Shown here: piece after piece, positions 633 to 38,786 of the stretch
Position numbering within the stretch: position 1 is the stretch's first letter
Layout of the letters: each line of letters starts with the position of its first letter
From: an uncultured Eubacteriales bacterium
GTDB taxonomy: Bacteria > Bacillota > Clostridia > Lachnospirales > Lachnospiraceae
DNA: 64,000 nt
Assembly (NCBI GenBank): GCA_949294665.1
Contig: CASFID010000048.1
Location: 62,001-126,000, forward strand
Direction: 5' to 3'
The notes under the pieces: model-generated
What the model saw: only the letters and a program-made list of their open reading frames with translations
What the model was told of the DNA's origin: nothing
The model's database searches: none
Made by a program: the position numbers and the translations under genes

Positions 633-661
633 TTGACAAAATACGAATAAAGAGTTATTAT
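633..661 (+). promoter_or_regulatory. Strong sigma-A type promoter for a long leader
   Basis: TTGACA (633-638) and TATTAT (656-661) are spaced by 17 bases. Transcription would start near 668, about 400 bases before the first downstream coding sequence at 1070, so a long non-coding leader is made. Confidence 0.75.
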
Positions 662-663
662 AA

Positions 664-1009
664 TGTCAACAAATAAAACTGAAAGAAAGTTTTATCGAAC
701 CGGTTGAATATCATGACCGGGAGAGATGATCAGATATAGAGAAAGATCATAATGACGAGAAAGTTATGAGAGAAGCAAAATCTATATCAAAAGAAAGGTC
801 GTCAGGGAACCCGGATTCAACAGGAATCTAAGTAAAGGAGGTACGGACCACCGGGAACATAAGTTAAGCTATCGATCAAAAAGAAAGATAGAAAAAGAAA
901 GAGGTAAAAAAGAATGATAGAAATATCAGTATGAAAGTGGATGTTGATCAAAACAGATTGGTTGGCATCCACTTTCGCTGTGTAAACAGCAGGTCTGCAT
1001 CTTGTCAAC
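664..1009 (+). ncRNA. Candidate structured RNA or long leader upstream of a WYL regulator
   Basis: No convincing gene lies here. Several complementary segments can form one compact fold: 700-709 with 815-824 (9 of 10 pairs); 717-721 with 810-814; 733-740 with 781-788 (8 perfect pairs); hairpin 747-752/764-769; and its loop 753-758 with 799-804, a 6-pair pseudoknot. Further on are an 11-pair stem 933-943/966-976 and a GCTGT/ACAGC hairpin at 977-990 closed by a GTAA loop. There is no T-run after these stems, so an intrinsic terminator is not evident. A second CCGGG at 851-855 could compete for 810-814. I could not assign it to a known class; large Firmicutes RNAs such as the raiA motif are candidates to test. 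Confidence 0.55.
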
Positions 1010-1069
1010 ATGAGAGAAGATTGATAGAATAAACGGGAGAATATATCAGATGCGGAGACAGAAAGACAG

Positions 1070-38581: not shown

Positions 38582-38599
38582 AGTACACGTAAAAGGAAT

Positions 38600-38730
38600 A
38601 AGATCTTCGGGGTAGGGTGCAAGTCCCAACCGGCGGTACAGTCCGCGAACTGCTTTACAGCAGCCGAACCGGTGACTTTCGTTGCAGGGAGAATTCCGGT
38701 ACCGACAGTATAGTCTGGATGAGAGAAGAG
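38600..38730 (+). ncRNA. FMN riboswitch (RFN element)
   Basis: The conserved start ATCTTCGGGGTAGGGTG, the internal CAACCGGCGGT, AGCCGAACCGGTGA and TTGCAGGGAGAATTCCGGT segments, and the end GGATGAGAGAAGA are all present in order. It senses FMN and controls ribU downstream. Confidence 0.97.
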
Positions 38731-38786
38731 AATTATAGCCGTCCGTACGCGTGCGACAGGACGGCGGTCCATCGATTGAGAATCGG

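Follow-up and report, generated by a model that had tools for sequence, protein, structure and literature searches.

The interval 633 to ~985 of the window (the whole stretch of 64,000 nucleotides that was analysed) looks like a free-standing RNA gene, and the hallmark of its family is a Shine–Dalgarno module, AGGAGGUACGGACCACC, with CCG or CCA at the position expected for a start codon. For those sites of the family that do bear a start codon, comparison of relatives gives strong evidence of translation initiation. The RNA most likely engages ribosomes, and we give an even chance to the reading in which this free-standing RNA gene belongs to a Lachnospiraceae family whose RNAs work on the ribosome or by way of it. 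Putative ribosome-docking motifs combined, in one free RNA, with a minimal frame tied to a hairpin match none of the classes tested, and raise the question of whether bacterial RNAs regulate translation through decoy ribosome sites.

A candidate RNA gene with its own promoter

The interval sits between the divergent gene of AsnA (aspartate-ammonia ligase, start at 467, minus strand) and that of a WYL-domain regulator (1070–2065). A good promoter had been read at 633–661, and it is borne out: the plus-strand sigma-70 type site TTGACA-17-TATTAT has 11 of 12 matches to the consensus, and its 17-nt spacer was matched in 28 of the 30 genus loci taken for comparison. The two exceptions are a locus that begins within the RNA (L017) and one with the same promoter that the regular expression missed (L002). 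We place the RNA gene at 668–985 on the plus strand, its 5′ end predicted from the promoter and its 3′ end from a hairpin and the point at which most homology stops. Because homology ends at window positions 971–985, just past the hairpin, in 20 of the 29 genus matches (the window itself excluded), the RNA probably ends before 1069; six of the remaining matches extend to 989–1056 and three end earlier. Beyond the hairpin the downstream gene has a promoter-like site to itself, TTGTCA-17-TAGAAT (1002–1030, plus strand), with a similar site 3′ of the hairpin in 21 of 29 genus loci. The promoter spacer, the end of homology, the varying neighbours and the second promoter-like site together make the interval look like a separate transcription unit. 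The sequence-only reading had named a free RNA as one of two options, which agrees with the promoter, the homology end after the hairpin and the lack of a constant downstream gene. It had also described about 400 bases without a gene; no plus-strand gene of ordinary size is apparent, so this part stands, but the RNA probably stops short of 1069. A minus-strand frame of 64 codons is listed at 817–1011; its length in homologues varies (34–55 codons in the aligned part), and it is taken as a chance frame.

Fold and covariation of the 5′ domain

Folding of 660–1069 gave −104.9 kcal/mol, where shuffles averaged −67.2 (z −7.7), and folding of 668–986 gave a z of −5.5; none of 100 shuffles was as good in either case, in line with the structure beyond chance that had been claimed. 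The 5′ domain (700–824, plus strand) consists of a covarying outer stem, 700–707/817–824, a second stem, 726–731/797–802, and a third, 733–740/781–788, from pair counts in 28 homologues. Over five helices in these homologues 97% of cells were paired, compared with 29–43% in slid controls, and double changes occurred in 19 of 46 pairs, whereas shuffles gave 9.1 and reached this number in 0 of 500 cases; the related species that enter these counts are not independent, and one of the five helices is invariant within the genus. Covariation in homologues, whose absence had been named beforehand as a ground for giving up the proposal, is present. Three of the stems first read from the sequence are supported: 700–709/815–824 (double changes in 7 of 10 pairs, 92% of cells paired), 717–721/810–814 (5 of 5 pairs, though just 78% of cells paired) and 733–740/781–788 (2 of 8 pairs, 99.6% of cells paired), all in the same 28 homologues.

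Two further proposals did not hold. The pseudoknot 753–758/799–804 showed no double change, 79% of cells were paired and one pair formed in only 6 of the 28 homologues; its 3′ side covaries with 726–731 instead. It is left unsupported, though not strictly excluded, because its loop side is invariant. The switch in which a second CCGGG (851–855) would compete for 810–814 is rejected on pairing in 54% of cells and zero double changes, equal to shuffles. We also set aside a helix AUGAC/GUUAU of the genus alignment, which is invariant in the genus; stems of other genera fit another register.

An invariant loop on changing stems

The hairpin at 748–768 (plus strand), CAUAA/UUAUG, carries the invariant 11-nt loop UGACGAGAAAG at 753–763, as judged from the flanking pairs in distinct copies. 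At least six flanking pairs surround UGACGAGAAAG in all 20 distinct copies with a core module (the start-less module described below) no more than 400 nt away, and the stems occur in nine different 5-bp versions across genera while the loop stays constant. The hairpin had been read as GNRA-capped; across genera the stem instead encloses the entire 11-nt loop in these 20 copies. Five copies lacking a nearby core module had 0, 3, 6, 6 and 12 flanking pairs. In the genus the loop precedes the core module by ~80–85 nt, in seven other loci it comes 145–178 nt after the module, and this shift of place indicates that the parts are modular.

Start-less Shine–Dalgarno modules

The core module of the window (825–867, plus strand) scored 59.8 bits with R1, a 43-position model of the module. 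It comprises the Shine–Dalgarno sequence AAAGGAGGU (834–842), a GG/CC mini-hairpin, CCG (851–853) in the place of the start codon and an in-frame UAA (860–862); the feature that defines a STAB-SD, a Shine–Dalgarno sequence lacking a usable start codon, is found here at 834–853. The layout is a Shine–Dalgarno sequence, five bases, CC, one base and the codon position, and the GG/CC hairpin could hide the Shine–Dalgarno sequence. Many units lack a GGA loop of the kind repeated in CsrA-sponge RNAs. The window copy has a single start-less module. R1 scored 114 module hits across the 72 loci outside the genus type, 62 of them in 20 multi-hit loci, with neighbours spaced by 47–67 nt in 34 of 42 cases; the maximum among relatives was found in Anaerobutyricum hallii, with eight tandem modules 53–59 nt apart.

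The codon position was counted in 220 distinct units, with CCG in 86, CCA in 66, TTG in 28, ATG in 27, ACA in 5, GTG in 3, ATC in 2, GGC, GGG and CCT in one each, and CTG in none. Since 109 loci were fetched by an exact motif, the invariance of the motif and the CCG or CCA in 102 of the 220 units, which equal that motif, are built in, and the counts used as evidence are those of the other 118; loci beyond the 109 came from model or pattern searches that likewise favour CCR. These 118 units contained CCA (31), TTG (28), ATG (27), CCG (19), ACA (5), GTG (3), ATC (2) and GGC, GGG and CCT (one each), again with no CTG; CCG or CCA thus occupies the position in 50 of the 118. When loci picked by a pattern that fixes A or T at this position are included, ATG accounts for 42, TTG for 34 and GTG for 3 of 255 units. 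All 60 modules of alignment A2 carry GAGGTA, an invariance that is partly built in because the selecting pattern fixes most of these letters. Stop statistics in start-less units partly mirror sequence conservation and were not used as proof.

The element ACGGACCACC, beyond the Shine–Dalgarno sequence, brings a small gain in pairing with what we take to be the 16S tail (−14.8 vs −13.0 kcal/mol). We therefore reject extended 16S rRNA pairing as the reason for the whole module; as ACGGACCACC adds so little pairing, it must serve otherwise, for example in protein binding.

The terminal short frame and its hairpin

A second Shine–Dalgarno sequence, AGAAAGAGGU (896–905, plus strand), lies 8 nt ahead of a start codon and is kept in relatives. 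The frame that it precedes, ATG ATA GAA ATA TCA GTA TGA (914–934, plus strand), would encode MIEISV. Because the terminal site of the window lacks the CC of live units, this frame was judged by genus comparison: in 29 of 30 genus loci a frame of six codons closes with TGA at the hairpin, the remaining one (L028) being cut off before the frame. Its last codon is free to vary within the genus while its length remains constant at three. The base of a 19-pair terminator-type hairpin (933–951/958–976; 933–976, plus strand) overlaps the stop codon. The 11-pair stem proposed at 933–943/966–976 is real and was drawn too short: five of the 19 pairs show double changes in the 28 homologues and 99% of cells are paired. 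An intrinsic terminator has a stable GC-containing stem, which is found at 933–976; no clear U-run follows the stem in the window, where there were 0 terminator-like sites, and U-runs follow the hairpin in several relatives.

The relation of stop codon and stem was analysed in 58 units with NTG at the codon position, all of them from relatives and the window copy not among them, with no prior requirement that a stem be close to the stop; of the stems without interruption that start in the first 90 nt the longest was taken, and L031–L038 and L201–L222 were left out. An in-frame stop within 20 codons was found in 58 of 58 units (40 and 51 of 58 in the other frames), and in 34 the frame has exactly five codons. 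A downstream stem of at least nine pairs was present in 55 of the 58; in 46 of these 55 its start lies 0–4 nt past the first base of the in-frame stop, compared with 2 and 0 of 55 for the other frames. A scan that required a stem close to the stop and covered 420 nt detected a terminal frame in 75 of the 109 loci, with at least three weak cases; this reach accounts for some of the other 34. The predicted peptides are short and mostly acidic (MDEIV, LDSIV, VDSVH, MDSVR, LDNEN), and even shorter live units occur in relatives (MG, MA, MAR, MGK). Start, frame and stop, whose conservation marks a dual-function RNA, are conserved in the genus and in other genera. The live motif RGAGGTAYRGWCCAWTGG was found at 22 sites in 21 of 200 family genomes, and its reversed control gave 0 among the matches listed for the same genomes; all 22 sites open onto frames of 2–17 residues and none onto a longer gene.

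Distribution of the family

Blast in 61 genomes recovered the element at E ≤ 6.1e-8 in 32 of 37 genus genomes, its own included, and outside the genus gave short matches only (E ≥ 4.5e-5). No further copy was found in its own genome beyond the self-match, the other 28 hits being short (E ≥ 0.028). Across the order, GGAGGTACRGACCRCCGGSAAC was matched in 14 of 392 genomes when up to two mismatches were allowed, with 0 for the reversed control among the matches listed; three of the GGAGGTACRGACCRCCGGSAAC sites (L039, L040, L053) lack the RNA surroundings and look like chance, at least two of them lying in coding sequence as judged by eye. Scanning named genomes for exact copies of AGGAGGTACGGACCRCCRRRAAC returned 109 stretches, with carriers that include Blautia, Roseburia inulinivorans, Anaerobutyricum hallii, Eisenbergiella, Sporofaciens and Parablautia. 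A viral origin was rejected, as 0 viral contigs matched the exact motif one base shorter than AGGAGGTACGGACCRCCRRRAAC.

Lachnospiraceae are among the abundant human gut bacteria, and one short model, R1, finds the RNA at E ≤ 0.01 in 124 of 296 sampled genomes of this family, or 102 of 243 genera, where the E-value predicts ~3 chance matches. Among 195 genomes drawn from the whole class, R1 matched three: the genome of the window, the family member G077 and G709 of another family. The last of these (L224, E 7.3e-5) is a single module hit outside the Lachnospiraceae. Three genus genomes (G030, G019, G031) hold a second, different family member at another locus (L055, L056, L057), directly behind a promoter and with units that have short frames.

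Comparison with known RNA classes

Rfam 15 gave no match to the RNA of the window at gathering level or at E ≤ 5, in agreement with the initial view that it could not be assigned to a known class. On 19 relatives only tRNAs were found at gathering level; on two relatives at E ≤ 1, one had a sub-threshold sbrA hit on the other strand (18.6 of 45 bits) and the other none. CsrB/RsmZ-type sponge RNAs are free RNAs with several Shine–Dalgarno-like motifs, and lambda bar is a minigene. The Lachnospiraceae RNA resembles the sponges in having several such motifs in a free RNA, and differs in that its modules have a start-codon position and that it has a live terminal frame. The minigenes lambda bar and axe-txe mg2 (PMC8708949) share with relatives of the RNA a ribosome-binding site followed by a frame of 2–3 codons; as far as the accessible text describes it, mg2 lies within a gene leader, whereas the frames here are inside a stand-alone RNA. 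The raiA motif RNA, ModT, is a structured Bacillota RNA with its own transcript, as the Lachnospiraceae RNA would be, but the plan of P1–P8 and two pseudoknots given in the available portion of PMC11706538 was not seen in the Lachnospiraceae RNA, which has no Rfam match. The STAB-SD of cry3A mRNA, in the part of PMC4113751 consulted, is a Shine–Dalgarno-like site that gives no translation start and can interact with 16S rRNA; it is described there in a messenger leader, without tandem modules or a terminal frame. Candidate uORFs such as fthC combine a Shine–Dalgarno sequence, a short frame, an in-frame stop in a hairpin and a terminator-type hairpin after it, but in the accessible part of PMC11109978 they are defined by a consistent downstream gene, and the RNA studied here lacks one. 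Surveys of uORFs and ncRNAs (PMC8632094) and work on extended Shine–Dalgarno sequences (PMC13009471) have, in the text available, at most a feature or two in common with the RNA, and its plan is absent from them. No description was found among the open-literature entries listed; an unnamed entry may exist among the 3161 candidate structured RNAs from the microbiome that PMC8040213 reports in its accessible part. By these descriptions and the open literature the RNA is set apart from the named systems, and it looks like a member of a family new to Rfam.

A possible mechanism and alternative explanations

In the reading that we favour, 30S subunits would dock at the start-less modules, and a ribosome that starts at the terminal site (914) would meet the hairpin and be held or slowed there. 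The first paired base of the hairpin is 19 nt past the A of the start codon. The footprint of the ribosome places the mouth of the mRNA channel at about that distance, and this nearness is the reason to expect that the ribosome is held or slowed. The RNA would in this way load itself with ribosomal particles; a small pool might be taken out of use, the free number might be sensed, or the RNA might be protected from nucleases. The complete picture, a class of regulatory RNA aimed at the ribosome, with a promoter close to consensus, 30S docking on start-less sites and a ribosome trapped on a minimal frame against a hairpin, which sets or senses the free-ribosome pool in gut Lachnospiraceae, is offered tentatively and falls short of an even chance. 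Its start and stop codons offer natural controls at single sites.

The modules could instead be sites for an RNA-binding protein, the RNA being a protein sponge as CsrB is for CsrA and the likeness to a ribosome site being part of the recognition. Conservation of the module past the Shine–Dalgarno sequence (in part set by the search pattern), tandem modules spaced mostly 47–67 nt apart, an invariant loop on changing stems, which is typical of protein recognition, and one CsrA in the genome of the window are all in favour of a sponge. However, the choice of start codons and the frame-locked stops need translation, and a sponged motif should recur in target mRNAs, yet all 22 live-motif sites, by one strict pattern, are tiny frames; we have rejected a sponge for mRNAs that bear the same motif on this last ground. 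CsrA was found in 5 of the 25 genus genomes searched, that of the window included, and not in the other 20, among them the near-complete carriers G007, G010 and G020. A sponge for CsrA as the general role was discarded because CsrA was found in just these five genomes, even though the window's own is one of them, and a protein sponge of any kind appears somewhat unlikely. It is less probable still that the start-less sites merely stabilise the RNA, its real function residing in the 5′ domain. STAB-SD is described, in the accessible part of PMC4113751, as a 30S-binding stabiliser against RNase J1; an effect of this kind would leave the conserved ACGGACCACC, the repeats and the terminal frame unexplained, and inspection of other genera by sequence did not reveal the 5′ domain of the genus.

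Readings centred on the terminal frame are more doubtful. In a translated attenuator, the hairpin would be blocked by a ribosome that occupies the short frame, and transcription would continue into the next gene. The stop codon at the foot of the hairpin and the same-strand GH3 gene downstream in 18 of 109 loci, with differing upstream genes, are what such an attenuator would be expected to show. Its downstream genes vary, however, 23 of the 67 loci outside the genus type with a next open frame have it on the opposite strand, and 21 of 29 genus loci show a second promoter-like site past the hairpin, which makes an attenuator very improbable. We are equally sceptical of a dual-function small RNA or micropeptide messenger, whose product would be an acidic peptide of 5–6 residues (MIEISV, MDEIV, LDSIV). 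Start, frame and stop are conserved and similar acidic-hydrophobic peptides recur across genera, but the last codon is hypervariable within the genus, the peptides are very different between genera, and a long structured RNA would be needless for such a product.

Neighbouring genes

The RNA had been proposed as a leader before the WYL regulator. This assignment was abandoned: WYL adjoins the RNA in 14 of 30 genus loci and has its own promoter-like site at 1002–1030, and the opposite-strand frames in 23 of 67 other loci speak against it as well. A cis-regulatory leader or riboswitch of WYL was rejected for want of a constant same-strand downstream gene. A homologue of the next gene (2084–2872) is present without WYL in 12 of the 30 genus loci, and neither was found in four. 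By crude calls of at least 110 residues, the next open frame in the 72 loci outside the genus type is on the same strand in 44, on the opposite strand in 23 and missing in 5; at 90 residues the counts are 43, 25 and 4. In the window, where the neighbours were looked at for a type III toxin, they are AsnA, WYL and a protein without a Pfam match.

That protein (2084–2872), downstream of WYL, has hydrophobic stretches, and a homologue lies near the RNA in most genus loci. Downstream genes outside the genus type are often enzymes of a kind able to act on the cell wall: among the 109 loci the clusters comprised GH3 (18), polysaccharide deacetylase (7), M14 carboxypeptidase (3) and N-acetylmuramoyl-L-alanine amidase (3), as raw counts typed from one representative each (the loci include L071, L075, L082, L087, L089, L119, L128 and L139). 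A protein that we take to be aspartokinase-like adjoins the RNA in 10 loci, on either side or strand (L089, L098, L105, L116, L101 and L114 among them), as AsnA does in the genus of the window. Elsewhere in the window, an FMN riboswitch was detected at 38599–38734 (95.4 bits).
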